From contig JAHRBC010000001.1 of NCBI GenBank assembly GCA_022702545.1, positions 1,922,001-1,986,000 on the forward strand: DNA of 64,000 bases, in the 5' to 3' direction. Source of the DNA: Phycomyces nitens (lineage: Eukaryota > Mucoromycota > Mucoromycetes > Mucorales > Phycomycetaceae). A model generated the notes under the pieces. That model was given only the letters and a program-made list of their open reading frames with translations. It was not told the DNA's origin and did no database searches. Made by a program: the position numbers and the translations under genes. Within the stretch, counting starts at the first letter, position 1. Every line of letters begins with the position of its first letter. This document shows, piece by piece, positions 3,552 to 64,000 of this stretch.

Positions 3552-6500
3552 ATGGCAGAGAATATACGAACCGATCTAAAGTCGTCTGATGGCAAATATG
3601 AAGTTCATCATCAGTCATATCCCAACTCGGTTGAAACAATAATCGAAGGCACTGTTGGTACACATGGAACCTATGGTGAATCCGAGTCCAATGCAGTTAA
3701 TATCGAAGGTACGCTTTACAGACATCAATATCTATCTGTTTACTAAATCAACAAATATAGAGGCCATTGGTCAATACGAAGAGCTCAAACGCGAGTTTAC
3801 TTCCTTGAGTCACAAATCATCCCACGCAGGAAAACTCGAGGAAGGAAATGCTCAATCAGATGCCTTTGATCTCGACGAATTTCTCCACGGTGTATCTTCC
3901 GAGGCAGATAAGGCTGGACACACAAAGAAGCATCTGGGTGTAATCTGGAGAGACCTGGTCGTAAAGGTAGATATTATATCTTTTTTTTTTGTTTTTAATC
4001 GAATCTAACCTTTTTGTTTCCACAAGGGAGTTGCTGCAGAAGCCAATACCATTGCCACTGTTGCTAGTTTCCCACTAGGCTTCTTCCGCTCGCTCGGATC
4101 CTTCTTGTTCAAATCAAAGGTTCCTGAAAGAGTCATCCTTCGTGGCCTTACCGGTTTCTGCAAAGATGGAGAAATGGTACTTATCCTTGGTCGTCCAGGT
4201 GCTGGCTGCACAACACTGCTCAAGATTATTTCCAACCTACGCAAATCTTACACTACAATTGAAGGCCACGTATCTTATGGAGGCATTGATCCTGTCACTT
4301 TTGCTGACCAGTACCGCGGCCAAGTCTGCTACAATGAAGAAGAGGATCAACACTATCCTACCCTTACTGCTAAGCAAACCCTTCAATTCGCACTGCGCAC
4401 GAAGACCCCGGGATCGAGACTTCCAGATGAATCCAGGCATGATTTCGTGAACCGGGTTCTCTACATGCTTGGTAATATGCTTGGTCTAACCAAGCAGATG
4501 GACACAATGGTCGGCAATGCCTTTGTACGAGGTCTGTCTGGCGGTGAACGCAAACGTCTCTCGATTGGCGAACAAATGACAACATCTAGTACCATCAACT
4601 GTTGGGATTGCTCCACTCGCGGTCTTGATGCTGCTTCTGCCCTTGATTTCGTCCGTTCTCTTCGCATAATGACAGATGTACTCAACAAGACCACAGTGGC
4701 TACTTTCTATCAGGCGTCCAATAGCATCTTCAACCTCTTTGACAAGCTCATCCTTCTTGATGACGGCTATTGTCTCTATTTTGGCCCTGTAGAACAAGCC
4801 AAGCCATACTTTGAGAAGATGGGTTTCTTTTGTCCTCCACGAAAATCCACTCCCGATTTCTTGACTGGTATCTGTAACCCTTTGGAAAGAGAATTCCAAC
4901 CCGGTTTCGAAAAATCTGTCCCACAGTTTGCACACGAGTTCCAAGATCGTTACCTTGGTTCTGACATTCACCAATCGATGATGGCTGAGCTGGAAGCCTA
5001 TGAGAACCAGCTCTCAAGTGATAACCAGGCTCAAGAATTTAAACAGGCCATGAACGAGGAGCACCAGAAACGTGCTTCAAACAAGAGTCCCTTTATTGCC
5101 TCGTTTTACCAGCAAGTAGTCGCTCTCTTGATCCGTCAATATTATCTCCTCATCAAGGACAAAGAAGCTCTGTTTTCTCGCTATGGCACAATCCTGATCC
5201 AGTCTCTTATCACGGCTTCTTGCTTTTATGATCTTCCCCTCAGTGGAATCGGTGCATTCTCACGTGGTGGTGCTCTGTTCTTTGCTGTTATCTTCAACTC
5301 CTTTATTGCTCAGAGTGAACTCATTCGATTCTTAATGGGTCGTCCTGTCCTAGAGAAACACAAGCAATATGCTCTCTATCGCCCTTCTGCATTCTATATC
5401 GCTCAAATGCTCATGGATGTTCCATATGCCCTTCTCCAAGGTAAGAATCATTTCTATAAAGTCAATAGTAATCTAACAACCTCTCTAGTCTCTCTGTACT
5501 CCTTATGCTCTTACTTTATTATTGGTCTCAACATGACGGCCGGAAAGTTCTTTACTTTCTTTGTCTTGTTGTTCTTTATCAATATGACTATGAACGGTTT
5601 CTTCCGTATCTTTGGTGCAATCACCAGGAGCTTCTTTATTGCCACCCAGTTGTCTGGTATTGTGCTGGTTTCAGCAATTACCTATGTTGGCTACAGTAAG
5701 TATCATTTACTCCTCAATATAATTATTTTTTTAACATATTTTTTTTTCAATAGCAATTCCTTACCAAAAGATGCATCCCTGGCTCTACTGGCTCTACTGG
5801 GCTAACCCTCTGGCTTATGGTTACAAGGCCCTTTTGATCAACGAAATGAATGGCCAGGAATACACTTGTGAAGGTGCCGGAAACGCTGTTCCCTATGGTC
5901 CTGGATATGACAACTGGGACTACAAAGTCTGCACTATGACTGGTGGTGTCTCTGGCGAGAGCTTTGTCAAGGGCGAGTCCTATCTTATGGAGGCACTGAC
6001 CTATAGACCATGGGAAGCTTGGGCGCCTGATTTTATTGTCGTCATTGGCTTCTTCATCCTGTTTACACTTCTCTGCGCGCTTGCTATGGAGTACATTGAC
6101 TCTAGTGGTGGTGGAACTACTACCAAGTTTTACATTCCCGGAAAGGCTCCCAAGCCTCGCACAGATCAAGAAGAAAACGAACGTCGCAAGCGTCTTGCAA
6201 AGATTACTGACGAAATGGACGGAATCTCTACCGGTACTACCTTTTCGTGGCAGCATGTCAATTACACTGTTCCAATTCCTGGTGGCAGCCTCCAACTTCT
6301 CAATGATATCAATGGTATCGTCAAGCCAGGCCATCTCACTGCTCTCATGGGCTCTTCCGGAGCAGGAAAGACCACTCTTTTGGATGTTTTGGCTCGTCGC
6401 AAGACCACCGGATTTGTCGAGGGAAACATTATTCTCAATGGCGAAGCTCTTATGAATGATTTTGAGCGCATTACTGGCTATTGTGAGCAGATGGATATTC

Positions 6501-8131
6501 ATCAACCTGCTGTCACTGTCCGTGAAGCTCTTCGATTCTCTGCTTATCTCCGTCAAGATGAATCTGTTCCAAAGGCCGAAAAAGATGATTATGTTGAAAA
6601 GATTATCCAGTTGCTCGAGATGGAAGACATTGCCGATGCTCAGATTGGCATGGTTGAATACGGCATTGGTATCTCTGTCGAAGAGCGAAAGCGTCTCACC
6701 ATTGGCATGGAATTGGTCGGAAAGCCCCAGCTTTTGTTTTTGGACGAGCCTACTTCCGGTCTTGATGCCCAAAGCTCCTATAACATCATTCGCTTTATCC
6801 GCAAGCTCGCTGATGCAGGCTGGCCCGTTCTGTGCACTATCCATCAGCCTTCTGCTATCCTATTCGGCCATTTTGATCATCTTTTGCTACTTGTTCGTGG
6901 TGGAAAGACGGCCTACTATGGCGAGATTGGCCCTGATGCTCACACAATGATCGATTACTTCCAGTCCAACGGTGGTCCCATCTGTCCTCCTGAAGCCAAC
7001 CCTGCTGAATATATTCTCGAGGTTGTTGGTGCTGGTACCGCCGGAAAGGCTGTTCGTGACTGGTCTGAAGTATGGGCTGGATCAAGAGAAGCCAGAGCAC
7101 TCGATGCCGAGCTTGATGCTATTGAGAAAACTGCCAACAAGAATCCCACTAGAGAAGCTCGTACATATGCTGCCTCCCACTGGACTCAGTTTAAGCTTGT
7201 TCACAACCGAATGGCCTTGGCTTACTGGCGCTCTCCTGATTACAACTTTGGTCGTTTCTTCAACATTGTTGCCACTGCTCTCATCAACGGTTTCACCTAT
7301 TGGAAGCTTGGGCATTCTGCTTCAGACATGCAAAACAAGCTTTTTGCCCTCTTTTCTACCTTTATTATGGCTATGACTCTTATTATTCTGTCTCAACCCA
7401 AGTTCATGACCGAACGTCTATTTTTCCGTCGTGAATATGCCTCTCGCTACTACAGTTGGTTCCCATGGGGACTATCAGCTGTCTTGGTCGAGATTCCCTA
7501 TGTTTTTGTATTTGCAGCATTTTTCCAGTTCTGCTTCTACTGGACTACTGGTATGTCCAACGTTGCCGAGTCCGGTGGCTACTTTTACATCATGGTCGTC
7601 TTCCTTGTCCTCTGGGCTGTCACTCTTGGTTTCGTTATTGCAGCCGCCTCTGAGCTCCCCACAATGGCCGCTGTCATCAATCCCTTGGTCATGTCTCTCC
7701 TAATTCTTTTCTGCGGTCTCATGCAGCCCGAGTCTGCCATGCCAACCTTTTGGAGAAGATGGATGTACTGGCTCGATCCATTCCATTACTATGTCGAAGG
7801 CCTTGCTGTAAATGAACTTGAGAACCTAACGGTCGTGTGCACAGACGATAATCTCCTAAAGTTCTCTCCTCCTCCTGGCCAGACATGTGGCGAGTACATG
7901 AGCAACTACTTTTCATATGGAGGTCCTGGTTACATTGCCAACCCTGATGCTATGCAGCCTGAACAATGTGGTTACTGCAATTATAAATCGGGTGAGCAGT
8001 ATTACTCAACTGTCTATGGTTGGGATGCTGCTAACAAGTGGCGTAACTTTGGTCTTATTATCTGCTACTTTACTTTCAATACCCTTGTGTTCCTTTCATT
8101 GGTATACTGGAGAAGAAAGGGAAGACGATAG
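3552..8131 (+). CDS. PDR-type (ABCG, full-size) ABC transporter
   Basis: Five exons (3552-3708, 3761-3966, 4027-5440, 5489-5695, 5754-8131) encode 1453 residues in the fungal order NBD1-TMD1-NBD2-TMD2. NBD1 has the degenerate Walker A GRPGAGCTT near residue 176, signature VRGLSGGERKR near 288 and the altered Walker B region CWDCSTRGLD near 314. NBD2 has a canonical Walker A GSSGAGKTT near 861, a degenerate signature (SVEERKRLTIG) and FLDEPTSGLD near 989. This asymmetry, with one degenerate site in each half, is the family rule for Pdr5/Cdr1-like pumps, so it is not damage. Both membrane domains are present, with the large Cys-rich extracellular loop before the last helix. It is expected to sit in the plasma membrane and export drugs or lipids; the substrate cannot be read from sequence. 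All introns are 48-60 bp. Confidence 0.95.
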
Positions 8132-16777: not shown

Positions 16778-18625
16778 CTACTGAAAAGCTTCTTGCTCAG
16801 ATGTTGGACGTAGAGAACTTTGGTCGAGGGGAGTGTAGATTAGATAGCCAACAAAGCCAAAGTAAATGGCAGCTATTCCCATCAGGACAGGTGGATAAGA
16901 GTATTCTTTCAAAAACCCAATGCACAGATGAACATTAAAGCCAAAAAGAATCCAGGAGATTGTCCAGCACATGGTGTGCATCCAGCGGCTGTTTTTAAAC
17001 GTGCTTGTCATTATTCTACTTGAGCTCGTAAGCTTAAGGATTGGAATAATGGCCATTGGAAGGCACAGACTACAAAAATCCATATATATAATCAATCAAC
17101 TAGTAACATTTCTGTTGATCAAACAATCGTACCTCTGTAACACGTTTAGTATTTCGCCCAAGGTGTCAAATCTATTGACAGCCAGCACAGCGACCATCAT
17201 GCTTGGAACCAATGATACGGTGCGTGTGAGGGCAACACGATGCCATTGCTTCTTGAAAATGGCCCCAAAGAAGCCTTCTACAACCTAGACAGATTATATG
17301 TCTTAGTAGACATTTTGATATAATAATCAAATTACATATTGCCCGGCCAATGTGCCTGTCATGGTGGAGCTTTGGCCGGCTGCAAGTAGACCTGCTGCCC
17401 ACAGATACCTGGCATATTCACCCAGGGTATTCCGCAGTACTTCAGAAGCATCGTAGAGACCCGGAAGAGTGTCGAGGGTGTTTCCGGGCTCATAAAACAC
17501 TTGGGCAAATACCACGACAATGGCCAGATTTATGAAATAAGATGTCAGGAGAGCCAAGCCTGATTCAATGGCAAAATAAAAGTTTGCCTCCCTGAGTTTT
17601 CGTTCGCTCGGCTTCTCTCCTAGATTTCGAGACATGACCAAGGCGCTTTGGGTAGTGTCAATATAGAGCCGTCGTTCGAATGATTGTAATCTAGGACTTG
17701 CCTGTGAAGGAACATATTGTGAGGCATAATGACGGCTCCTACCATGCCAACTGCCTGGACAGTCGCATTTTTAGGGATTTCGGGTACAAATATGCCATAA
17801 AGAATATTTGGAATACTGGGATGGGACGAAATCATTTCAGCCCAGAAACAGGCAATCATGACTCCAATCAAGGACATGAAAAAGACTTCAATCTTACGAA
17901 CACCATATTGTTGCAACCACATGAATATAAATGTATCAAAGGCTGTGATCAACACCCCTACTGGAAGTGTAAATCCAAAAAAGATCTTTAGGGCAATGGC
18001 AGTGCCCACGATCTCTTGAATGTCAGAACCAATGATGGCGAGCTGAGTAAAAACCCACAAGATATAGCCTATGGGCCGGCTGTAGCTGTCCCTGATCAAC
18101 TGAGCCAGGTGTTTGCCGGTAACTACCCCCAGCCTGGCCGAGAGGATCTGTATAACAAGCCCTTTATATATATACATATATTGATAATTATTAGGCTTTG
18201 GAGGCTAACCAAGCATTTCAATTACCAGCCGCATGAGCCCACAAGAGCAGCCAAAGAAGCTTGTATCCTGCGACTGCACCCGATTGAAGGTCGGACTCGA
18301 GATTACCAGGATCCAAATAGGCAATTGACCTAAAATCCATGAAAGGTACAATCGAATTAAAAAAAAAAAAAAAGAGCGAGTTGCAATTTGTTCCTGAATT
18401 TACGCACATTAGCCAGCCCGGTCCACTATAGAGCATCAACTTTTTCCAGGAAAAATAGGCTTCCTTGTCCTCCTGGTCCTGGTGGGTATCAACCTGACCC
18501 TTGACATCCACTTCGACATTCCATTCGTACTCTAATGGGTCATTCGACAGGGCCTGGTAAGAAGGTGTCTTTTGGGTCAATAAGCTGTCACGCTGGCTCG
18601 GACTGCCTGCATTAGTTCTGTCCAT
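16778..18625 (-). CDS. Nramp-family divalent metal transporter (Smf-like)
   Basis: Six exons (18408-18625, 18226-18329, 17702-18161, 17336-17645, 17133-17284, 16778-17069) give 511 residues. The two metal-site motifs are intact: SIAYLDPGN (DPGN at about residues 79-82, TM1) and MPHN (about 253-256, TM6). The stretch [16 protein letters not shown] and the GQ(Y/F)V.EGF segment are family-typical. Family members move Mn2+, Fe2+ and other divalent metals with protons, at the plasma membrane, endosomes or vacuole. Two splice sites are unusual. Intron 1 uses donor GTGCGT, which is required to restore [11 protein letters not shown]. Intron 3 uses a GC donor (GCAAGT), which restores NMFLHSALVMSR. The acidic, soluble N-terminal 60 residues precede TM1. 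Start at 18625; an in-frame ATG at 18661 would add 12 residues. Confidence 0.93.
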
Positions 18626-20618: not shown

Positions 20619-23600
20619 TTAATGTTTAATATCGTCCAATGGAATAGGCTCGTTCGGAAGCTGCTCTAAGTGGGCTTCTCTTTCTCGGCCATTCTTTAAT
20701 ACAAGTTCGATTTCACGAATTATATCATTGTCATACGGGTAATATTGGTGAAGGATGTGTTTGGCTGCCACACGGGGTACCAAGCAGGTAACAACGGCAA
20801 GAATCAGTACCAGCCAATAGAATCCAGTACCAAACAGTCGCAGATGGCCAGCAAAAATAAAGGTGTTGAACTGGGAATAAATGGCAACGAATACATAATA
20901 GACCAGAATCGAGGCAGCAATGATGACAACTTGGATCCAAGTGTAACCGTAGAGCGAGAATGCAATAAACAGGTTTGCCACACACACACCAATACTGGAC
21001 ATTATTGTACCCATTTCATAGATTCCATTGGTCGAGAATCCAGCGACATCAAACGCACCGGCAACAAACAGCATGTAGGGGAAAAAGAAGGAAACCGCAG
21101 ATTGGTAGATTGCATCGACAACCATAAGCCAGAAATGCCAGGTCTTGAACTTGTCATTACGAAGTCCCATGCGGTACAGCTCTGGGTAGCGAAGAGAAAT
21201 CCGGGCAGAGAGGTCTTGGTCCCAGATGCCGAGGAAGATGATGGGGAGCGAGGTAAAGATTAGATTGTAAAGAGTAACAAGAGAATAGTCAAAGGTCATT
21301 GAGCCATTGAACCTAGACGTGGATTGTCAGCAAACATAATAATAATAATAATTGATATCTCAAAACAACTTACTGGCAAAATATCTGGTACCAAAACAGC
21401 ATAAAGGTCCATACAATGTTCTTGAAAAAGAAGCCTATAATCATCTCGGCCGTACGCAGATAGGACCATCGACCATGGACTAGCAACATCTTGTGGAGAT
21501 ATCTGAACTGAGCAATTGCATAATCAGACGCCATCACAGCCTGTCTTCCTTCAACACCACTGATGCCCACTCCAACGTTGGCTGACTGGATCATTGCTAC
21601 ATCATTTGCACCATCACCAATGGCCAGTGTCATCACCTTGAGCCCCTTTTTGACCAGCATTACAACCTGTGCCTTTTGTTTAGGGCTCACTCGGCAGCAG
21701 ATCACACTTGCACACTGCATTCCAAGGTCCAGCAGCCCATCCTTACACTCATTCAACAGCGCATACCGAAGTGTGGTGCCGTCAATGACCAAGGCACGCT
21801 TCTTACCCAGATTATTTTCGGATGGCTTGAGGGCCTCTTCAATCTGAGCCTTTGTTTCGTCTCTTGTCTGGGCCTTTATTATCACCAGCTCCATGTCGAC
21901 CGTCAAGAGGTTACAGGAAAAGCCAATATTGATAGCCGTCTCAGTCTTGTCGCCCGTCAGGACCCAAAGTTTGATGCCGGATTTTGATAGCTCGGCAATA
22001 GTCTCTGGTACGCCTTCCTGGAGTCGATCTTCAATGGCAGTTCCGCCCATCAGCAACATTTCACGCTCAATTCCCTCGCACACCTCATCGATTTTCTCTT
22101 CTCGGCCATGAATGCTCGAATTGGCTTCCTCGAATCGCTTGTTCCATGCAGTATACTCTTCCTTGGCAATAAATCGGTAAGACAAACACAGGGTTCGGAG
22201 GCCCTCATTGGCAAACTCCTCCAAGGCGTCAGAGGTAGTTTCGCGTAAACGAGCTTGAGACTCGGCCAAGGCTGTCTGGTTTCCAAATTCGGTACACAAA
22301 CGTTCAAATATGATTGAATCGGCACCCTTGCAGAGTAGCACGATCTTGTCACTGCCCTCAGGTTGGACAATCACGCTCATTCTTTTACGTGTCGAGTTAA
22401 ATTCAAGGACATTGAGCAGAGAGAATCTCTGTTCCTTGCCTTTCACAAGTACCGTCATCGTTCGGGTCTTGTTATTGAGGTTCAGGAACACAAAGCCAAG
22501 ATCGCGTGCGGTGCCTACAAGCGCAGCCTCATCAGGCGACTGTGCCTTGTATTCAATCTCATCTTCATCATCCGGGTTGCTTTGTTCGGGGATTGCAGTG
22601 TGACAAAGTGCCAGTGCAAGGCCAAAGTGCTCCATCATTTGTGAATGTTCATCATCTTTGCCAAGATCCTCAAAGAAGGCAGGATCAATAAAGGTTGGGT
22701 CTCTAACATGGGGGTTGTCGAATTGCTTGGCCTGTATTTCGAGCATTCGTCTTTTTTCTTCATTCATAAACTCAACATTGGCCTCTTTTTCGGTTTCGTT
22801 TGAAAAAGTCGATTCATAGTCGTGTATTTGGCCAGAGTTTTCGGTATGACGAGTGTTTTGTGTACGGAGGCGCGCGCCTTGGCTGGCTTCAGTTGTGCCA
22901 AGACCATAGGATACACCATCGATCGTGCATTTGCGAAACTCCATTACGTTTTGAGTCAGGGTGCCGGTCTTGTCAGAAAACACGTATTCAATCTGGCCTA
23001 GATCGTCAGAAATGTTCCATGTCTTTGGAATACATGGAGAGTCGGTTGGGGCATAGTACATGTCAATGTCTGAATAGATAAAGTAGGCCTAATAGACAAT
23101 GGTTTAGAGACAGATTAAAATAAAAAAAGAGAGTGCATTGAGACTTACAGCAAATGTCTTTACAATTTCAACCGAAATATAGAGTGAAATTGGTACAATA
23201 TTTTGGTACAAAATTAACGTAACCCTATAAACAAACAATTAATTAGTTGGAGTTTTGGTGTCTAGAAACAAACTTACCAAAATGTCAGGAATCCAGAATA
23301 TGAACCACTGCTTCCCTCAATGTCAAAGTCAAAATAACGGGATGACCCTTTGCCGTTAAACTGAACACTATCGATCACCGAACTCACGATACACATAATT
23401 GCCAAGATTACGAAATTGGCAATAACCTTTAAAGATGTATATTAGGAAGTGTCTCTTTTAATAGATTTAGAAGCTTACATGTGGATTTGTTCCCTTGGCC
23501 ATCTTGCTACGCTTCGAAGGCGTCTGACCAGAATTGAGCATGATCTTTGTCTCGGCTCCGGTATAGACCACCATACAGATAACCCATTCGGTGTTCCGTA

Positions 23601-24921
23601 GTACACATCCTCGAAGGAGCATGTTGTTGTATGTAACTGGGTCAGATTTCTGATGCTGAACTCCTGAGCGCGTTGTTGCCGCTTCGTCTACCTCTTCGAT
23701 TTCCCAACGAAGAACGCCGCTGTATTGGTATAGGTTCACATGAGGTGGCTCGCTCTCGATATAGAATCTTGCCCTCTCACAGTCATGGACAGTATTAAGG
23801 TCACTTGTGCCGGGCAGACCCTGCCGAGCTTTGAGATTTGTCTCACCGTCAAGATTCTGTGTCTCGACATAGCACAGGTTGTCTGGGTCTGATGTAGAAA
23901 GTACAATGACATCTGCGGGCACGTCTTCATTATTACGGATTTTGATATAATCTCCTACTTGTACATCCTGCCAGAGAGTATCAGCCCATGTTGCCTTGCA
24001 GTCCAGTCCAGGAGGATCTGTTGGGTGACTATCGCCACAGTGTAGGCCTGGTGCGACTGTAGAGGGTCGGCGAGCAGTGTCGTTTGTTGCAGTGCGGTAA
24101 AGGACAGAGTGGGGAATTGAGCCAGGTCGATAAGGCTTCTGGCCCTGAGTGCTGTTTGGTTTGAGCATTCTACTGATCGAACGCAGGGTGTCTGAGCGAG
24201 GTCGGAGCTGGTGGACTCTTTTTGGTAGACTCAAGGGCAGGGCCTGGTCTGAGTTACGAGGAGATACGGGGTCTGTAAGAGGTTGCTTCTCTTCTTTAGG
24301 TTTACGCTGTTTGGAGTCTTCTGATTTTGCGCTTCTATAGAGACGGGCATACTTGTTTTCTATGCCCAATATCGTGCAGGTGAATCCCCACGCGACCTTG
24401 AAGGCGTGGAAGCGACCTTTGCTTATTTCTGGCAAATTGACATTGCGCCAGTTTTTCAGGCCAAGTACCTTTGACTTGTTCACTCGCTTGTCACTTTGGC
24501 TACGCTTCGTGTCTTCAATGGCATCCTTGATAGCCGTAATGACGATAATGACAATCAGAGGCAGGGCAGATACTGCAGGCTCTGTGACGCCAAAGATGGG
24601 AATGCATTGGAGGACGACGAGGAAAAGGAAATAGAGGTTGGCGACGTTACGAAATTGTTCAAACAGGTTTTTTGGTACAAAGGAAACGAGAGTGTATTTT
24701 GCGGTTCTAATTCGATTGTTTGCATAGTGTCGGTCGATAATACGTCCTTTGTGGTCATACTCGGACTGGGGTAACTTGGTATTTACGTAAATATTGCGAC
24801 GTTGTTGCATGTACGACGATGTCGACTCTGTCCTCTGGAGCTCTTTTTGTTCTGCTTCATTCTTGAGTTGCTCTCTAGTTTTTTTGTGGAATAACGCCTT
24901 GACTCGAAGAGATTTGTTCAT
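20619..24921 (-). CDS. P4-ATPase phospholipid flippase, Dnf1/Dnf2-like
   Basis: Five exons (23479-24921, 23278-23426, 23149-23224, 21374-23088, 20619-21312) give 1358 residues. Visible P4 features: PISLYISVE in TM4; the catalytic site DKTGT with Asp near residue 595, preceded by TWNISDDLGQIEYVFS as in fungal Dnf proteins; QNLDGETNLKAR in the actuator domain; KGADSIIFERL in the nucleotide domain; and the hinge GDGANDVAMIQ. A long Ser/Pro/Arg-rich cytosolic insert (about residues 190-310) between TM2 and the actuator domain is typical of Dnf1/2 and argues against Drs2 or Neo1. The last exon covers TM6-10 and ends in a short tail. Family role: flipping phospholipids to the cytosolic leaflet at the plasma membrane and endosomes, with a Cdc50/Lem3 partner, which is not encoded here. 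Confidence 0.94.
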
Positions 24922-25938
24922 GGTTGTTATCTAATATGATGGCGAAACTACAAGTCCAAAGGATATGCGACAGATGTGTACAATTGTATAATTATAAAGC
25001 CGTGTAGAATTAATACATAAGATAAAGAAGAGAAAAAGAGAGAAAGGCTTAGTTCCTGGGAGTGAATAGAAAAATAAAAATATAATCTAAGCGGGAAACA
25101 TAATCTTTTCGTACTCAAGGGGGAGAGGACGACAGAAGGGGAGGGGGGTGGACTGACCGACAAAGGCCCGCAAGTTTAAAAGCAGGGTATCCTATTAGAT
25201 ATCGTTGTCCCACGTGGAGAAGGACTCTTGTCGACTCTAGCGACGATCCGGTACTTTATTGAACCAGTCCTCGGCTAAACACAGGCCGCATATTCCCACC
25301 TTTGGGGTTTAGAGATGCCCACACCACAAAAACTAAAGTATAATTGAGTAGCATTGGACAGTGCAGTATTCAAAATGGCTTAATGTTGCCACCATTCAAG
25401 GTTTTTTTTTTAAATGGCTGTATATGCATTCTAACCCCTTTTTTCCCCAGATGCTCTAGTCGACTATTTAATTGACAGAAACGCCACCAGAATAGCCTAC
25501 CAGTCCATTTTTTAAATTATTAATATAAGCTTAAGTTTCTGGAACATCTTTTGCAACAATATTAAAAAAGGACACTATGCACGGATACTGCCAGGCACAA
25601 TAAACAGTTTTACCGTACAAATAATATACCGATTTTATTCGCCGCGTATGTTTCTTGATGATAACAGGTTATGTTTGATACAATGTCTTACACCATTATG
25701 TCGGTTAAAATAATTAAATGATCGTAAAGAGTAAATCACTGCAAATTTATTCTACCTTTTATTATTGTCACTTTCCATTTTTGGAAGCCATATTTACAAT
25801 CCCAATAATAAAATAAAATTGAGAAAATCTGATTGCAAAAAAAGAAGATCTTCCTCAGACTGGCTAGATTATCTTTTTCTACTGGATGATCTTTTACACA
25901 AAGTTTGATATATAAAAGCACTCGATACCAGAAGCTTC
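24922..25938. other. Intergenic region upstream of the flippase
   Basis: About 1 kb of AT-rich sequence without a supportable gene. A GC-richer patch around 25130-25310 lies just upstream of the flippase start and is the probable promoter region. Confidence 0.45.
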
Positions 25939-28382: not shown

Positions 28383-29148
28383 ATGAAGTAATGTATTTCG
28401 TTCATCCATCCATCCATCAATCCGATGCATCGGCCATGAGTGTACTTGTCGAATTCCATCTGACTGATTCTATACATCTCCTTGTGCTTTGTTGACCTCT
28501 TTCACTATAATAATTTCACCAGGCTTGAGATTTGCTCCTTCTCTGGCCACAAGATCTACCCTTCCAAGGGTAAGACTTACGTTCGCATTGACAGCAGGTA
28601 AATAATCCGGGATATGAGAGGGGATATGGGGACAGAATCCAGAAAGATTACTAACTTTATAATGTCATTAGAGTAAGCACATTATCTTACCCAATTGACG
28701 CCATTCAGAAACTAAACAGATATATTACCTTGTATTACTTTGCATTGTTACTTTTTTAATATTCTAGAGCTTCCGTTTCATCAACGGCAAGTCCGAGTCC
28801 TACTTCCTCCAGCGTCTTAACCCCCGCAAGATCAAGTGGACTGTCATCTACCGCCGTTTGAACAAGAAGGGCATCACCGAGGAGATTGCCAAGAAGCGAT
28901 CCCGCCGTACTGTCAAGCACGAGCGTGCTGTCGCCGGTGTCTCTTGGGATGCTATCCGTGCCAAGCGTAACCAGAAGCCCGATGCCCGTGCTGCTGCTCG
29001 CCAGGCTGCTATTGCCAAGTCCAAGGAGGCCAAGAAGGCTGCTGCTGCCACCAAGAAGACCACCACTGGCTCTGCTGCTCAGGGTGCCAAGGTCTCCAAG
29101 CAGGGTGCCAAGGGTTTCGCCCCCAAGGCTGCTGCCACTTCCCGTTAA
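28383..29148 (+). CDS. RPL24: 60S ribosomal protein L24 (eL24)
   Basis: The protein is unmistakable: [22 protein letters not shown], then [20 protein letters not shown] and [15 protein letters not shown], and a Lys/Ala-rich tail, 153 residues. Coding exons are 28383-28387 (ATGAA only), 28523-28597, a proposed 1-nt exon at 28672 (A), and 28768-29148. Exon 2 ends with two bases (AG) of a codon and exon 4 begins exactly at a codon (AGC), so they cannot be joined directly. The single A at 28672 is framed by CATTAG and GTAAGC, with a perfect CTAAC branch-like site upstream. It completes AGA (Arg27), where yeast and human have Lys. Total coding length is then 462 nt, divisible by three. A one-base error in the assembly is the main alternative. 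The small exon 1 supplies Met-Lys, as in other eL24 proteins (MKVE). Confidence 0.93.
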
Positions 29149-30929: not shown

Positions 30930-32772
30930 ATGGGATTTGCTACCAGATTGACGTCTAATGTCTATGTATGTATTGAGTACCTTTTGTATTCAACACCACA
31001 TCTAATATCCTTTTGACGTTCTCTCTTTTTTTTTTTCAACAGGCAATTGGTGGGTTTGCTGCCATTGCTGGTATCTTGTTCGGTTTCGATATCGGTTCCA
31101 ACTCTGTAAGCATTCAACAGTTTCCAAACCGAGATCAAGATCCTAACAAAAAAAAATTTTAAAAAGGGAATTATTGGTACCAAACAATACCTCCTCTACT
31201 TCGACAGCCCTAACGATCTTCTTCAGGGTGGTATCAACGCAGCTCTCAGTGCTGGTTGCTTTGTCGGTGCGTTGGTTTCTGGTTACCCTGCCGATCGTTT
31301 CTCTCGTAAATACACCTTGATGGGTGCTTCTCTTCTCTTTATCGTTGGTGCTGTCATTCAGGCTGCCTCAAACGGTGTCCCTATGTTGTGTGCTGGTCGT
31401 GTTCTTGCTGGTCTGTCTGTCGGTGTTACATCCATGGTTGTCCCTCTTTATCAATCCGAAATTGCTCCCAAGGAAATTCGTGGTCGTATTGTCGCTGTTC
31501 AGCAGTGGAGTATTACCTGGGGTATTATGATTTCGTAAGTATTTGATGATTTCAGACAAGAGCATTAGATCTCACCTTTATGCAGTTTCTGGATTCAGTA
31601 CGGTTGTCAGTTCATTGAAAGCACTGCTGCTTTCCGTATTCCATGGGGTGTACAGGGTATCCCTGCAGTCGTCTTGTTCTGTGGCATGTGGTTCTTCCCC
31701 TTCTCCCCCAGATGGTTGGCCGATCATAACCGTATGGACGAGGCCATGAGAGTTCTTGCTGATATCCACGGTGATGGTGATGTCAACCACCCTCGCGTCC
31801 AACAGGTAAGATACTATTTACCAATTATCAACAAATCTGACACATCACTATAGGAAATTAAAGAAATCCAGGCTGTTATCGACTTTGACCAAAACGTTGC
31901 TTCCCACCGTTATGCTGATCTCCTCAAGCCTGGAATCCGGTACCGTGTCTTCCTTGGTGTCTGTCTTCAGATCTGGCAGCAGTTGACCGGCATGAACATC
32001 ATCATGTTCTACGTCGTCTACCTTTTCCAGCAGGCTGGTATCGGAAGCGATCAGGAAGCCACACTCGTCTCATCTGGTATCTCTTACGTTGTTAATGTTG
32101 TCATGACTGTTCCTGCTATCCTTTTCGTTGACAAGTGGGGTCGTCGCCCTACCATGATTTTCGGTGCTCTTGCCATGTCCGCCTTCCTCTGGATTGTCGG
32201 TGGTGTCTTGAGCTCTGGTGAATGGTCCCTTAACGAAAAGGGCAAGTGGACTGTCGAGTTGAACAGCAAGCCCAAGGCCGATCTTGTTGTAGCTTGTATC
32301 TATCTCTTTGTCGCTTCCTTTGCCACCTCCTGGGGTCCTCTCGGATGGATTTACCCTGCCGAAATCTTCCCTATCCGCGTCCGTGCCAATGCCGTCTCTC
32401 TCTCCACTGCCTCCAACTGGCTCTTCAACTGGCTCCTCAGTTTCGTTGTCCCCATGTTGATGCAGCGTCTCCGTTTCGGTCTCTACATGCTCTTTGCCGG
32501 CTTCAACTTCTTGATGGCTATCCACATCTTCTTTGCTTACCCCGAGACCAAGGGCTTCACTGTAAGTTTTACAAAATTAGATGCTAAATTTTGGAACAGG
32601 TTATTAAATGACTTTAATTTTCTAGCTTGAAGAGATGGACATTGTATTCGAGCACAGCCCTCGCAAGAAAATTCCTCGCTCTGTTATCGAGAAGGAGTCT
32701 GCCGATCGTTTCCGTACCCCAAGCACCGGCTCGATCAACGAGAAGGAGATGATGGCTACCAACGATGTTTAA
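30930..32772 (+). CDS. MFS sugar (hexose) transporter
   Basis: Six exons (30930-30965, 31043-31105, 31167-31534, 31586-31805, 31854-32561, 32626-32772) give 513 residues with twelve expected membrane helices. Sugar-porter signatures are present: LFGFDIGSNSGIIG in TM1, ADRFSRKY after TM2, GRVLAGLSVGV with PLYQSEIAPKEIRGR, the QQLTGMNIIMFY motif of TM7, DKWGRRP, WGPLGWIYPAEIFPIRVR in TM10, and PETKG after TM12. By family, it imports hexoses across the plasma membrane, probably with protons. The codon usage is C-ending-rich and strongly biased, unlike neighbouring intergenic DNA, which suggests high expression. Substrate specificity cannot be read directly. Confidence 0.95.
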
Positions 32773-33789
32773 AAAGTCAATTCTTTTAAGCTGCATTCCC
32801 CTTTACCATTTTATCTATCCACTCTTCATTCCTAATTAGTTATTTATTTCATTGTCTCATGATTCTGAAGCATTAATTTTTATTCCTACCAAATATCAAA
32901 TATATTTTATCTTTATAATATGAATGTGCGTTCTTTTTGACTTTATTATTATTACTATTATTAAAAAAAACCTTTTGCACACTATATGACACGACACTAA
33001 ATATCAATCTGTTTTGTTATAAAACAATATGAACAAAGGCAAATAGAGCTGCTGTCAAACTAGAGTTTTCTTGCTAATTGATTTTTGGGTGTGTTGGGAA
33101 AAGTTTAAACCAAATATCTCTGGTGACACGTGTGTGCTATAAATTATCCATACGCACCAAGGAGCAAAGCATTGTTATAACCAAGCAAAGTATTGTTATA
33201 TCCAATCAATGTTTGACAACTAGAAGAGCATTATAATCTGCTATAGGCATGGCTATTATGCGATTAGAATGTGTATGTACAAATCATTCAACCCAATTTT
33301 TTTTTTAAATAATAATAATAATAATATTCCAAGATTCTTTGCAGAAAATACAAAAGGTGTTTGTACATTTACCCCCCAAAAAGTACACCTGTAATTCCAT
33401 ATGCACTAAAAAGTACAACAATCTCATTTTGTAACCAGATAATGGGTGCAACTAAAAGTGTATTATTCAACTTGACCCAACATGTCAATTATTGTTTACC
33501 CTTGGTGACATCTAGTTGAATCCGAAAATCTCCTGTGTAAATGGGTGGTCTCGGATTGTTTGTCTGATAAAGCATACTTTTACCCTATAGACCCTACCTT
33601 ATTGGTAACAAGTCCACATGCGTCCCTAGTAATGGCGTAAGGTGTCTTTCAAATAGCCACGCAAAAGAGAAAGAGAGAAAGAGAGAGAGATGTAAAGGAG
33701 AAAGGGGACATGTTCGTATAAATAACCAGAAAAAATGTGGAATTTAATAAAGTCCATCTCCAACAACTCATTTATTTTCTTTACCAATT
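32773..33789. other. Intergenic region
   Basis: No gene. It contains a short near-direct repeat (AAAGCATTGTTATAACCAAGC then AAAGTATTGTTATATCCAA, about 33166-33206), an AAT run near 33308-33325, and GA-rich repeats at about 33664-33690 upstream of the secreted-protein gene. Confidence 0.5.
33717..33724 (+). promoter_or_regulatory. TATA-like box of the secreted-protein gene
   Basis: TATAAATA 66-73 bp upstream of the ATG at 33790, immediately after a GA-rich tract. Positional inference. Confidence 0.45.
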
Positions 33790-41140: not shown

Positions 41141-42696
41141 TTAATGAGACTTTTTATAGACTCTCAGACCATCATCCTTGTGGTCTTTCTTCAATGCCAG
41201 GCCAATACGCTCGCCCTCGGAATCAAAGGTAGTATAAAAGGCGTTTGTAAAAGTAGTGCCAAGTACCCAGTCACGCTCCGAGTTACCACGGCTAAGACGT
41301 GTGGTGCAGTAGCCACAGCAATCGGTGGCGTTCTCTCTTTGGACCCAGTACTTTGCAGGCAGTTCAACAATGTGGTCTTCAAGAGTCAGCTTGAGAGTAG
41401 GGAGTTTATCAGCCTCACAGCAAACGAAGCGGTAGGTCTTGTCAGAGGCATGATATCTTCCACCAAAAGTGTCATGGAACTTGTCAGCTAAACAAGAAGT
41501 TTTGTTAATAAAACAATAGAAATTTTATATTATTATTATTATTACCTTGATGAGGAGGCATTACAATGAATTTGCTGGAAGTGCTAATGGAAGCAATGGC
41601 ATTGGGCAACTGCTTCATGTTGAGTTCGTTATCAAAGTTGGCATCACGAATACAGACGTCCCAGCCATCTGCATATTCATCTCCAGTATTGGCAAGGGGA
41701 ATATATTCAACTTCGCCGCTGATAGCTGAAGTATCGACACCACCTATTGAAATGAAATACAAAAATAAATATTCTGCAAGTTATTATGTGTTTGAGTAAC
41801 TTACCAATAACAAGATAGCCTGCAACTTGTGTTTGTGGATGGTAGTTACGTTTGACAAATCCAAATCCGCCAGATACAACACCAGAGCTACTGCTAGATG
41901 AAGATGATGTAGCAGCATCAGAGGTGGTTGTGTTTGTGGCTGTATTAGTTGAACCATCGGTTGTAGTTGAACTACCGGTTGTGGTAGAACTATCGGTTGT
42001 GGTAGAATCTGTTGCAGTGCTTCCAGTTCCAGATTGACTAAAGCCATCGTCGCCGGTAGATGTAGTGTACATGCCAAACTGGGCACTTTCGACACCGTTG
42101 GCTTGTTGATAAGCATTAGGCACAAAGGCAGACGCAGGCAGAGAAGCATCGCGCTTGGAAAGTCCAGAAGATGAAGATGTGTGGAGTTTGGTGCTGTTGA
42201 AGTTGACGGAGCGTCCGAGGCCAAGATAGCCATCAAAGCCATCGCTGAATCCGCTCATACGGTAGGCTCCACCAAAAGGCATGTCGTGCACTGTCAGACC
42301 AGAGAATTCAAAAGTGTCGAGGTACACATGTGTATCCACACAGCTGTCGCCGTATTCAACCGAAAATTTCTCGCCCGTGGAGGTAACGGTGGAAGAACGT
42401 CTGGCGTAGTACGTACAGCGGTCCAAGCAATTCTCGGACTTGCAGCGGGAACCACGGACCCATGAATAACCTGTGGTAGTATCGAATGCCACGGTGAATT
42501 CTTGGGGAGGAGTGCCGATTTTAACTATTCCGGCAAGGGCACCGTTGTCTAGCTGGTAACCGGCTGCTTTGGTAATTCCGGACTGACCAGAAGTGCTGGT
42601 GCGACGGAACAATGGGATTTTGACTGGCGTCGGGTCTGCGGTGACGGAGAGCAGTAAGGGAGCAACGGCTGCGATAAAAAAGGCAGAATAGCGCAT
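41141..42696 (-). CDS. Secreted pepsin-like (A1) aspartic protease homologue, probably catalytically dead
   Basis: Three exons (41805-42696, 41546-41743, 41141-41487) give 478 residues with a signal peptide (1-20). The bilobal pepsin fold is recognisable: GIVKIGTPPQEFTVAFDTTTG contains the first catalytic Asp (D72, as D-T-T instead of D-T-G/S); the flap VEYGD has Tyr115; DGYLGLGR follows. In the second lobe the catalytic motif (normally xxD-T/S-G-T/S) reads AIASISTSSKFIVMPP, so Asp is replaced by Ser (S349) and Gly by Ser. A Ser/Thr-rich linker of about 50 residues (221-270) is inserted between the lobes. Without the second Asp the pepsin mechanism cannot operate, so a binding or structural wall role is more likely. 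Other family members with noncatalytic sites exist, so this need not be a pseudogene; the frame is intact. Confidence 0.85.
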
Positions 42697-43423
42697 CTTA
42701 TGGTTTGGATTTACTGTCTATCAAGTGCCAAAAATGGGTGAAAAAAGGGAGATTGCAGGTGCAATAAATGTGTAAAAAAGGGGTAAATCTAATTTCACAA
42801 GAATTTTTTCTTCTGATGCTGATATCAGAAAATAAACAAAGAGACTATTGTCAGATAGAGTCCAATGTTATCAAGGGATTGAAAAAGGGCTTTGTTGGAG
42901 GTGTGTATTGTCCTTTTGGTTCCCAAGATGTATGTCCAAAGGTCAAATGGAAGCCGAGAAAAGAGTGCAAGAAGAAAGAAAAAGGAGCGCACTCAGGGCA
43001 AAACCGAGGACTTATAAAAGGCTGAAAAAGTTGACTAAATGGATATGGCATACTTGTAACGGAGAGACAGAGGAGCCCCAAATATGGACATGCGAACATA
43101 TATGTATATTTATATATTTATAATCTGTATACAAAAGAGGGATTTCGGATAACAAGACTACACAGTGTTGTATGGTGCCATTCACACCTTTTCCTTTGTA
43201 TGAGCCATATTGCCCCATTGCCGACCTGATTTGCTTGCCCTTTACATGTAATAATCATAATAATAATTTTGATTTAATATCCGGTCCATTCAGCAGCAAT
43301 AAACGGGGCTCTCGATCGAGTTCCCATGTTTTCCTCTGTGTCTAAAATAGACTCAAAAAACGCTAGCCACGCTCACTTGTTTTCCTTTTTTTATATATAA
43401 AGCACCAGTCACATTCTAGACTA

Positions 43424-51882: not shown

Positions 51883-53886
51883 TTAAAAGTAAGAATCGAC
51901 GCATGGGTCAGCATCGAGAAGCCTTTCATGAATGGCCCTCATTGCTGTAATAGAGTCAGACTCTTTGACAACACATGAAATGTTGATTTCAGAAGCACCT
52001 TGGGAAATCACCTCGATATTGATGTTTGCAGACGCAAGCGCAGAGAACATCTCGGCAGCAACTCCTACAGTATTCTTCATCTTCTTACCCACCAGAGACA
52101 CAATGGCCATGTGGTTCTTCCTGTTCACCTAAAGGAGATCTGTGTTATCGATTGTAAAAGACAAAGTATCTCAAAATACCTTTCCAAGTCTGTTTAATTC
52201 CCCCAGGACCTTGTTGAGTAAATGCTCGGGTACATTGGAACCCATGACCAAGGACACATAGACTTCTGAGGTCGATATCAAGTCAATTACGATATTATGA
52301 TCGTCCAAGACCGAAAAGATCTTGGCCAGAAATCCATGGCTGAGATTCTTCTTGTTAGAATGAATGTTGAGGACGCAGATGTTGTTCTTTACGGTTATAG
52401 CCGAAGGAGATTTTCGTGACAAGTCTGAATGATATCCATTCTTTGCCAGGAAAGAGGGAGATAGTGGTGGTGTGATGTGGCTACTTGGAATATTATTGGG
52501 TACATCTGGAAAGACGACCGTGCCTTGTCCCACCGGATTCTCTACGTTCTTTATTCTAATCGGAATACTAGATCTGATGACCTGGTCCATGGTAAAGGGA
52601 TGTATGACTTCTGAGCCATAGTAAGTCAATTCGGCTGCTTCTTCAGGCGTAATTATTGTAAGAAGTCGCGCACTCTTTATCTTGCGAGGATCAGCAGTGA
52701 AAATACCATCGACCTCTTTCCAGATCTGCAATTCATGGGCATTTAAACCAACTGCCACCAAAGCAGCACATAGGTCTGTGTAGCCCCTTCCCACGGAAGC
52801 TAATAAGCTGCCAGGAACATTACCAAAGAAACCTAGTCATACGTCAAATAAGGCATACTATCATCAGAAATATTGGAGCAAAATAGAGGCCTCTATTGAT
52901 ATTACCTGTAATCACCGGTACCTTGTTGCCGCATCCATGGACAATACTAGCCATACGCTGACCAACATAATCATAGAATTCTTGATCAAGTACAATAAAT
53001 TCACGATCGATAATATCGTTCAATACCACAAGCTCGCTGTCGATTCCCTTTAAAAGACATTAGATTCATTGTGGCCCCAACTCGTCTTCAATTATCCCTG
53101 CATCATAGCCTCCCATGGAATGTTCCTCTTAAATCACAATTTAATTATCTGAACTTTTTATTTTGTTTACCTTATCCTGCAGAACTGCAGCCACAACCAT
53201 ACAGGCCAGTTTCTCCCCCATTCCAGTCACAACATCTTTAGATCTTGGAGAAAGCTCACCCAGGATCTTTAAATGGCTTAAATACCGAGGCATACTATAT
53301 GCACATATTATCTGTCTTACCTCTGTGGCCTGCAAAAAGGACACAAGATTGCTCATTTCTAGCTCTAGCTGATTCTCGAGCTGAAATAATATACGAGGCG
53401 TCTGAATGTTCTGCCGTGCCGTGTCCAAGTGGTCTTGTAAGATTTGCTTTACGATTGACAGGTACCGACCCTTGCCTTTTAATGCATATTCAGTGGCCTC
53501 CAAGAGTCTTGTGTACAGCAAAGCTTGTTATCACCAATTGCTTTTATCGGTCAAAACCCGACGATCTTGTGCCTTACCTGTTTGTTGTACCCATCTCCTT
53601 TGTTTCTCCACTACGGGCAGAACAAACGATGGCAACCCGTTTGGTCTTCAAATAGAACCTACAAATCAGCAAGAATTATGATGAGCACAATAGAATAAGA
53701 AATGTCAGAAATAGGTTTATGCAAAACGAGAAATTGGGTTGGTATTCTAATGATTCATTTTTGAATTCTTGTAACTCACGGCGTAATATCGGATGCAATG
53801 CTATCCAGGAACTTTCCAACGCTTGTTCCACCGTATTTTTGCACGACCCAAGGAAGATTTGGTTGATTGTTTATTAAAAGGGACAT
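51883..53886 (-). CDS. HOM3: Aspartokinase (Hom3-like)
   Basis: Six exons (53780-53886, 53578-53658, 53171-53507, 52906-53047, 52180-52832, 51883-52128) give 521 residues, against 527 for yeast Hom3. The kinase start is WVVQKYGGTSVGK (residues 13-25), followed by VAIVCSARSG. Exon 5 holds GRGYTDLCAALVAVGL, LQIWKEVDGIFTADPR and ITPEEAAELTYYGSEVIHP, the substrate and nucleotide region, then two ACT domains (NICVLNIHSNKK..., then HMAIVSLVGKKMKNTVG). It phosphorylates L-aspartate, the first step towards Met, Thr and Ile, and the ACT domains give threonine feedback control in fungi. The 123-bp intron 53048-53170 was chosen over a retained reading because it joins LQDK to GIDSELVVLND in the family frame. 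Confidence 0.96.
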
Positions 53887-62302: not shown

Positions 62303-62910
62303 TAGGCAGATTTACCTGCTTATTGTACCTTTTTTAAACAAAATATAATATGACTATATATGACTATATATATAATATCTTTAATTCTTAATAATAAATG
62401 CCAAATGTTCTCAGTAATGAATCGACTAGTAAGCATGTTTGCCATATTTTCCCCCTTTCTTTTTTGGTCAGCTTCAAGGTCTATTGTGGCTAAGTTAATC
62501 ACTCTAAATAAATGGGATATTAACTTCCCGCTCTAATCTTATTGACCAGTTGGACAAAGCTTAATTGTCACCAAGTTTTGTTGCAGTCAAACTCAAATTA
62601 GAACAATACAAAGCATTGGATTAACTAGACAGACAAGTATAAAGAGGTATAGATACAATCATTAAAAGACAGTTTGCTTATGGGATTCATATACACCAGC
62701 ATATTGATCAAGTAGGCTTACCAACAAAAAAAGCAATCATAGACACATCTGGGAGTTTTTTTTTTCCTGGTCTCTAGGCAACCGTGACAGTCAATACCTG
62801 GGTTTGAAATGGAGACTTACCTTCCTAAAGCGTAACAGAGAAAGAAAAAAGTTTTTTTTTGACAAGCGAGTTTGAGTTACAGGTTGCATCCACACCACAT
62901 TTAATTCAAC
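62303..62910. other. Intergenic region upstream of TSR1
   Basis: About 600 bp, AT-rich, with a duplicated TATGACTATATA (about 62350-62372). Presumed 3' flank of the upstream gene and promoter of TSR1. No gene seen. Confidence 0.45.
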
Positions 62911-64000
62911 ATGGTAGAGCATCGCCATCGCCCCGGATCGATGCACCAATCGAACAAGCCGTTCAAGTCGCGGCACTCGACCAAGAGCGCTCTTCGCGAG
63001 GTGAGCAAGGGAAAAGTGAACCGGACACCTGTCAAGCAAGCAGCCTCCAAGATCGTCTCAAAGGTCGATCGTCGCAATGCTGCCCGTACAATTCAACAAT
63101 CCAAGCGAGAGGAAATCACCCGAGTCAATCGTCTGTTCGAAGGTCGTCATGGTGCACCAAAGATCGTCCCTGTTCTTCCTCTTTGTCCCGACAGCGATGT
63201 CGAGGGAGCCATTGCTGCCTTGTACAAGTCGCTTGGACAGACTGCTCCTTTGGTGGGCAATGAACCTTCTGTCCTGGACGTTGAGCGTTTCAAACAAAAG
63301 ATTCAATTTGTCCCTCTCCGTCGCAACTTTATCGATGTCTTGGATGCCTTCAAGGTTGCTGATTTTGCCATTATTCTCTTGTCTGCAGAGGTAGAGGTCG
63401 ATAAGTTTGGCATCAACTGTCTCTTGGGTATCCTCAACCAAGGCTTGGTCAATATTGTCCCGGTTGTTCAGGTAAGATGTTTTGAATATTTCCAAAATAA
63501 TAATAATTGTGTATTAAAAAGAAAGAGGTTTTGTATTGTACCATTTGTAACATTAGCACATTGAAGCCTCTGCACCCAAGCTTCGTACCAATATCAAGAA
63601 ATCCCTCTTGACCTTCACACGCCAATTCTTCCCCGAGGAAGAGCACCTTTTCTCCCTCGACACCGATAACGACTCTATGAACGTCATTCGCTACCTTACC
63701 TCCCAGCGCCCCAAAGCATTGACCTGGCGTGATCTCCACCCTTATATGCTTGCTGACGATGTCCAGTATGAAGCTACTTCAGAGGTATTAAAAAAAAGAA
63801 TGAAAAAAAAAGGTTTTTTTTCTCTATTGTTGTTATTGCTGGATCGGTTGTCGTACAGTTGAACTATTGGCTAATATTGTGGTGGTTGTGTCAGGACAAG
63901 GGCGTACTCAAGGTTACTGGTTTTGCTCGCGGAAACCCCTTTAACGCCAACCGTCTTATTCATCTTCAGAACTTTGGCGATTTCCAATTGCAGCAAGTGA
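62911..64000 (+). CDS. TSR1: Ribosome-maturation factor Tsr1 (5' part, cut by window end)
   Basis: Exons 62911-63471, 63557-63784 and 63895 onward code the N-terminal 298 or so residues. The start MVEHRHRPGSMHQSNKPFKS and KVDRRNAARTIQQSKREEIT match the basic Tsr1 N-terminus. The GTPase-like domain follows (IVPVLPLCPDSDVEGAI, then FIDVLDAFKVADFAIILLSA, then INCLLGILNQGLVNIVPVVQ). As in other Tsr1 proteins the G1 P-loop GxxxxGKS is absent, which separates it from the sister GTPase Bms1. Tsr1 is a 40S biogenesis factor that occupies the translation-factor site of pre-40S particles. The last complete stretch reads FARGNPFNANRLIHLQNFGDF. The gene continues past 64000, and the final GTGA could be either coding sequence or an intron donor. 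Confidence 0.93.

Follow-up and report, generated by a model that had tools for sequence, protein, structure and literature searches.

Single-nucleotide exons of nuclear genes have been described in print in plant APC11 (PMC4674806), plant VPS55 (PMC8831610) and the CYP621A gene of Fusarium (PMC12940212), the last of which was published in 2026 in a paper that presents it as the first case in a fungal gene. The plant exons, that of APC11 being a single A, are kept across many species and missing from annotations, and their splicing was shown by cDNA, reporter assays or RNA-seq (PMC4674806, PMC8831610). The APC11 introns are argued to be removed one after the other (PMC4674806), and intronless plant APC11 copies are attributed to reverse-transcription-mediated intron loss (PMC8831610). 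CYP621A is a rarely expressed P450 gene in which a G forms the middle of a Gly codon; its flanking exons are one base out of phase, the AG-N-GT candidate has an ordinary intron on either side, the expected length is marked by an intronless relative, automated models err at the junction, and RNA reads exist (PMC12940212). Two further systems are related. Fungal stwintrons (spliceosomal twin introns) consist of two contacting introns that need sequential removal and retain no base, while placozoan mitochondrial cox1 also has a one-base exon, but one that is mitochondrial and not spliceosomal (PMC5436844).

The RPL24 (eL24) gene examined in this study, from Phycomyces nitens, a member of Mucorales within Mucoromycotina, shares with CYP621A the fungal nuclear setting, the one-base phase difference, the AG-N-GT candidate between ordinary introns, an uninterrupted relative that marks the length, and automated models that err at the junction. 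In contrast to CYP621A, it is a ribosomal protein gene of Mucoromycota, its uninterrupted marker lies within the same genome, its candidate base is an A in an Arg codon, and the exon is predicted from genomic sequence. The candidate exon resembles those of the plant genes, which are other genes in other organisms, in that it appears to be kept across many species and is missing from annotations; like the APC11 exon, it is a single A. Compared to a stwintron, the locus would likewise require sequential removal of two contacting introns, but would retain one coding base, which is needed for the frame. No one-nucleotide exon in RPL24 or in Mucorales was found among the papers listed in the literature searches, two of which listed 30 of 735 and 20 of 1,623 papers (most subscription journals lie outside their coverage). 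The original prediction had cited one plant case as precedent and had known of none in a fungal ribosomal protein gene; the first statement was too narrow given VPS55 and CYP621A, and the claim of novelty is trimmed because of the Fusarium exon, while a ribosomal protein gene as host is new among the papers listed. The candidate would place a one-nucleotide exon in a core ribosomal protein gene and in a second fungal phylum, which would demand routine and accurate processing by the spliceosome.

The window, the whole stretch of 64,000 nucleotides that was analysed, contains the eL24 gene at 28383-29148 on the + strand. The gene belongs to the PF01246 family, with both large exons exceeding the Pfam cut-off, and the best PDB chain for its protein is 9axt_Bi (E 2.4e-45, residues 1-135). 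The gene almost certainly has four coding exons (5, 75, 1 and 381 nt), of which the third, A28672, would complete codon 27 (AGA, Arg), and we infer from the genomic letters that this base is spliced into the mRNA. The splice-site scores come from a simple gene model, for which the window and 20 further stretches of 10 kb each served as training sequence (264 kb in all). It predicted 133 introns with a median of 67 nt and a 75% quantile of 87 nt; its longest introns (95% quantile 338 nt, with a limit of 400) are probably wrong in part. Percentiles were ranked against the 113 of these 133 predicted introns that are no longer than 200 nt. The features below include the counterparts in two further eL24 copies of the genome, C5 and C9.

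28383..28387, + strand: coding exon 1, ATGAA; the spliced translation begins MKLEIC; structure matched in the C5 and C9 copies
28388..28522, + strand: intron 1, 135 nt, GT...AG; counterparts of 155 nt (C5) and 98 nt (C9)
28523..28597, + strand: coding exon 2, 75 nt, phase 2 end, GACAGCAG; within the PF01246 match
28598..28671, + strand: intron 2, 74 nt, GTAAAT...CATTAG; donor ranked at the 83rd percentile, acceptor at the 65th (113 predicted introns)
28649..28655, + strand: branch-site-like TACTAAC in intron 2, branch A at 28654; 7/7 match, 17 nt before AG
28672..28672, + strand: putative exon 3, a single-nucleotide A, third base of codon 27 (AGA, Arg); matched in C5 and C9
28673..28767, + strand: intron 3, 95 nt, GTAAGC...TTCTAG, phase 0; donor ranked at the 32nd percentile, acceptor at the 63rd (113 introns)
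28768..29148, + strand: coding exon 4, 381 nt including the stop; begins AGCTTC after CTAG and ends ATSR*

Every coordinate of the original prediction, together with the donor GTAAAT and the CATTAG/A/GTAAGC context at 28672, held on re-reading of the sequence, and so did its central observation that exons 2 and 4 are out of phase by exactly one base. Removal of all 170 nt between them leaves no base and shifts the frame, which then closes after 57 codons, 287 nt short of the normal stop, and a stwintron was rejected on these grounds. Recomputed with A28672 included, the coding sequence has the 462 nt that had been claimed for it (stop included), or 153 codons with AGA at codon 27; the predicted join is GACAGCAG-A-AGCTTCCGT and the spliced junction would read GACAGCAGAAGCTTC. 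When internal exons are limited to 60 nt and introns to at least 40 nt, the window gap, with its single AG-N-GT, permits no canonical frame-restoring exon other than A28672. A zero-length recursive splice site, in which AG and GT abut, was also rejected, because one base lies between them (AG-A-GT). The two introns are of ordinary size for the genome, as had been proposed, and the branch-like motif noted upstream of 28672 proved to be a perfect TACTAAC, a 7/7 match found in 2 of the 113 reference introns. In the C5 copy the corresponding motif of intron 2 matches at 6/7 positions, at 25 nt, and matches in intron 3 are weak in both copies.

A family profile search of the assembly (48,981,352 bases, 11 contigs) gave seven exon matches, which represent three eL24 copies and one copy of Rlp24, an old paralogue of eL24. 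Besides the window copy (on C1), these are as follows.

7432094-7432981 (L009): eL24 copy C5, interrupted at codon 27, with an intron 2 of 88 nt and an intron 3 of 183 nt
G000:C9:3460614-3461173 (L010), - strand: eL24 copy C9, uninterrupted at codon 27, with intron 1 kept (98 nt)
G000:C4:5426088-5426361 (L008): Rlp24, with an ordinary phase-0 intron after codon 27

The C5 copy repeats both the one-base mismatch and the AG-A-GTA of the window: its gap reads GACAGCAG-GTAAAT, then AATCCAG-A-GTACGT, then TTATAG-TCTTTCCGT, and the predicted join is GACAGCAG-A-TCTTTCCGT. Between the two copies, the similarity of introns 2 and 3 does not exceed that of shuffled sequence, while intron 1 is still alike, partly through a CATC repeat. 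At codon 27, C9 reads GAC AGC AGA AGC TTC CGT, the exact predicted splice product, without interruption (GACAGCAGAAGCTTCCGT), and thus supplies an uninterrupted homologue in which the added base is visible. All three copies encode an identical 153-aa protein; their pairwise DNA differences (28, 27 and 22) are all synonymous, with 0 replacements, and in each copy, C9 included, all 16 Arg codons are CGN except for the AGA of codon 27. Both interrupted copies behave as working genes, because their proteins are identical and their genes differ at the DNA level by synonymous changes only; selection of this kind on exon 4 of the window copy and C5 would be expected solely with exon 4 translated in the correct frame. 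A single genome offers a natural test set, with two eL24 copies that carry the putative exon and one without it. The observation behind the original prediction is confirmed, and, with C5 matching the window and C9 holding the predicted junction, its interpretation as a single-nucleotide exon is very probably right.

Several other explanations of the mismatch bear directly on these copies. One missing base at the edge of exon 2 or exon 4, through an assembly or sequencing error, would produce an identical mismatch around a single ordinary phase-0 or phase-2 intron. This is very unlikely, because two separate loci with different introns, C1 and C5, agree in the mismatch; moreover, both carry a matching AG-A-GTA that is among the rarest-scoring site pairs in 264 kb, and records from other species break at this junction too, so that we give an error hardly any credence. 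Alternatively, the frame could be restored without a third exon, either by an intron with non-canonical borders, displaced by one base (AGG|TAAATA...TAG|), or by ribosomal frameshifting. Read from the sequence, such a shift would give AGG-AGC in the window and AGG-TCT in C5, both in frame and both Arg-Ser, but it would require a TA...AG intron or a -1 shift, and inspection of the joined sequences by eye revealed no slippery X XXY YYZ heptamer. In addition, C9 has AGA, with the base of the micro-exon, rather than AGG, and the paired AG-A-GTA in both gaps would be left unexplained; the chance that either process operates here appears negligible. A third possibility concerns C5, where, under the same limits as above, exons of 1, 10, 25 and 55 nt are all canonical and frame-restoring, so that a middle exon of 10, 25 or 55 nt is formally possible. 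None of these longer exons is available in the window gap, however, and they would lengthen a conserved segment by 3 to 18 residues in just one of the copies, whose proteins are otherwise identical, which makes a longer exon in C5 exceedingly improbable. The single A is the preferred reading for both copies, with introns of 74 and 95 nt in the window and 88 and 183 nt in C5 against the median of 67 nt; the 183-nt intron is long, yet on the order of intron 1 of C5 (155 nt).

The quality of the splice sites was compared with that of other sites in the genome. The first donor, which is common to both copies, stands at the 83rd percentile and the acceptor before the A at the 65th (window) and 79th (C5), while the donor that follows the A is not a strong one (32nd and 13th, respectively). 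Among 1663 AG-N-GT sites on both strands of the 264 kb (528 kb), two have a combined splice score at least as high as that of the window site, one of them being A28672 itself, and eight reach that of the C5 site: the two eL24 micro-exons, two coding AAG|G|GTAAG sites in exon 2 of the same genes, and four elsewhere. When the window and C5 gaps were shuffled 5000 times with dinucleotides preserved, AGAGT (50-nt flanks) occurred in both in 0.16% of the shuffles and YAGAGTA in both in none. The trained gene finder predicted no exon of 12 nt or less in the 264 kb, and without guidance it misses the micro-exon structure, skipping exon 2 in the window and C5 copies; its role here was to supply splice matrices and a null, not independent proof. 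In C5 it scores the micro-exon structure at 74.1 bits versus 71.0 for a structure with a false donor. Another pair, AG|G|GTAAAA at 33584 of the window (- strand), outside predicted genes, exceeds A28672 in its combined splice score.

For the window copy alone, the trained model prefers a structure without any micro-exon (84.5 bits versus 79.2), in which one intron, 28598-28769, ends at a GAG acceptor (CTAGAG-CTTCC); the exon that starts at 28770 is in frame and the protein is one residue shorter, VRIDS-SFRF. That acceptor nevertheless scores -0.12 bits, at the 12th percentile of the 113 introns, whereas the TAG two bases upstream scores 2.40. It is absent from C5, which reads TTATAG-TCTTTCC, and hence cannot explain the paralogue, which has the same mismatch. 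The GAG acceptor would also delete residue 27, which is present in C9 and, judged by pattern, in all 55 listed records from outside Mucoromycotina. Taken together, these points make use of the GAG acceptor a slim prospect, if a marginally better one than the explanations considered above, and the one-base exon remains the favoured structure.

The comparison with related species called for in the original prediction was made at the protein level; eL24 DNA of relatives was sought in genome-contig and viral-contig collections and none was found there. The best 120 of 272 matches to eL24 were all read and grouped by the organism name shown (P0114, which has no name, was assigned to Umbelopsidales by resemblance), and the junction was considered unbroken if it had the pattern VRxDS(R/K)xFRF. 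Among these best 120 of 272, 19 of the 65 Mucoromycotina records are unbroken compared to 55 of 55 others, leaving 46 failures versus 0; by order, the unbroken records are 19/57 in Mucorales, 0/7 in Umbelopsidales and 0/1 in Endogonales. These records are not independent species, since several species are present more than once. The 19 unbroken records may be correct, well-supported models or copies without these introns. In the 46 failing records, exon 2 is in frame in 30, in another frame in 10 and absent in 6. Ten of the 30 in-frame failures read GKTY|TFRF or similar, with VRxDSR omitted through a false phase-0 donor; the simplest reading is that such a donor is chosen because the true donor is out of step with the phase-0 start of the next exon.

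Splice phases in the other species can be deduced only from such faulty protein models, several of which point to a phase-2 donor. In P0064 (Rhizopus arrhizus) the sequence is DSR-LSVSST, the shifted reading that results if a phase-2 donor is joined directly to the following exon; in P0015, P0017 and P0063, a false acceptor within exon 4 has been paired with a phase-2 donor; and P0012 and P0084 read DSR-Y, as in read-through into a phase-2 donor. Nine further records have DSR-V(R/S/C) or DNR-VC, which back-translation leads one to expect from read-through of a GT donor after the codon, a weaker form of evidence because an ordinary phase-0 intron could give it too. Conservation of the exon is visible at the DNA level in C5 and, indirectly, in other species through the faulty records.

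Rlp24 served as a control for annotation quality. Among 50 named Mucoromycotina records in the best 120 of 5481 matches (the unnamed P0143 excluded and the variant DAK allowed), 1 fails at the codon-27 junction. The two listings are of similar depth: relative to the top bit score, the weakest listed match reaches about 62% with eL24 and 63% with Rlp24. Fisher tests gave p = 1.8e-15 for eL24 versus Rlp24 and 3.4e-18 for eL24 of Mucoromycotina versus others, values that are guides only because the records are related. With 1/50 failures in Rlp24 against 46/65 in eL24, generally poor annotation does not explain the excess, and the micro-exon would offer a simple reason why so many listed Mucoromycotina eL24 records fail at one spot, making it a test case for annotation pipelines. 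No Phycomyces name occurs among the 120 listed eL24 records, while Rlp24 records of P. nitens and P. blakesleeanus exist, the protein of the C4 locus being 100% identical to the former and 98% to the latter; the eL24 models of Phycomyces may be absent, unusually long or concealed within a cluster.

Splicing of the proposed exon most likely proceeds by ordinary intron definition, with introns 2 and 3 removed sequentially, because a single nucleotide cannot let both of its sites be occupied at once. With CAG ending exon 2 and TAG ending intron 2 (in C5, CAG), intron 3 would have AGA-GT as its donor context both before and after removal of intron 2. The stronger first donor and the TACTAAC hint, as a guess, that intron 2 is removed first. 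It might also be speculated that skipping of the A, with its early stop, acts as an on/off control of eL24 supply via mRNA decay.

The one-nucleotide exon is probably old in Mucorales and Umbelopsidales, and an origin predating the split of these orders is the simplest reading of the records. It is likely that the exon arose once before that split, was kept in a core, presumably abundantly expressed gene, survived duplication and was lost only through cDNA-derived intron replacement. The common ancestor would have had a phase-0 intron after codon 27 and another intron one base upstream, and C9 would later have lost both, probably through cDNA, with its 5'-most intron retained. Loss of the two 3' introns and retention of the 5' intron would fit cDNA-mediated loss, as proposed for the intronless APC11 copies (PMC8831610), and the AGA of C9 looks like a remnant of the split codon because no splice site there needs it. 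There are two potential routes to such an ancestor. Intron 3 may be the older one, as in Rlp24, with intron 2 gained one base upstream; the phase-0 intron of Rlp24 has the exact position and phase of eL24 intron 3, a correspondence that could reflect a shared old intron or coincidence. Alternatively, a base at the exon edge may have been lost and rescued by a cryptic one-base exon, as proposed for CYP621A (PMC12940212), with extra gene copies able to carry the loss in the meantime. Three of the four introns flanking the A in the window and C5 (74, 88 and 95 nt) are near the usual size, the fourth having 183 nt, and these sizes slightly favour two introns over one split intron.

The window also contains pieces of several other genes. 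On the + strand, long open frames with ABC transporter, ABC-2 membrane and PDR/CDR domains mark a PDR-type ABC transporter region at 4009-8131, and pieces of a sugar transporter gene and of Tsr1 are found at 31854-32630 and 62905-63564, respectively. On the - strand lie a piece of an Nramp transporter gene (17620-18204), a phospholipid-translocating P-type ATPase gene with at least three open frames (20619-24930), a piece of an aspartyl protease gene (41707-42717) and a gene piece encoding an amino acid kinase with an ACT domain (52171-52836).
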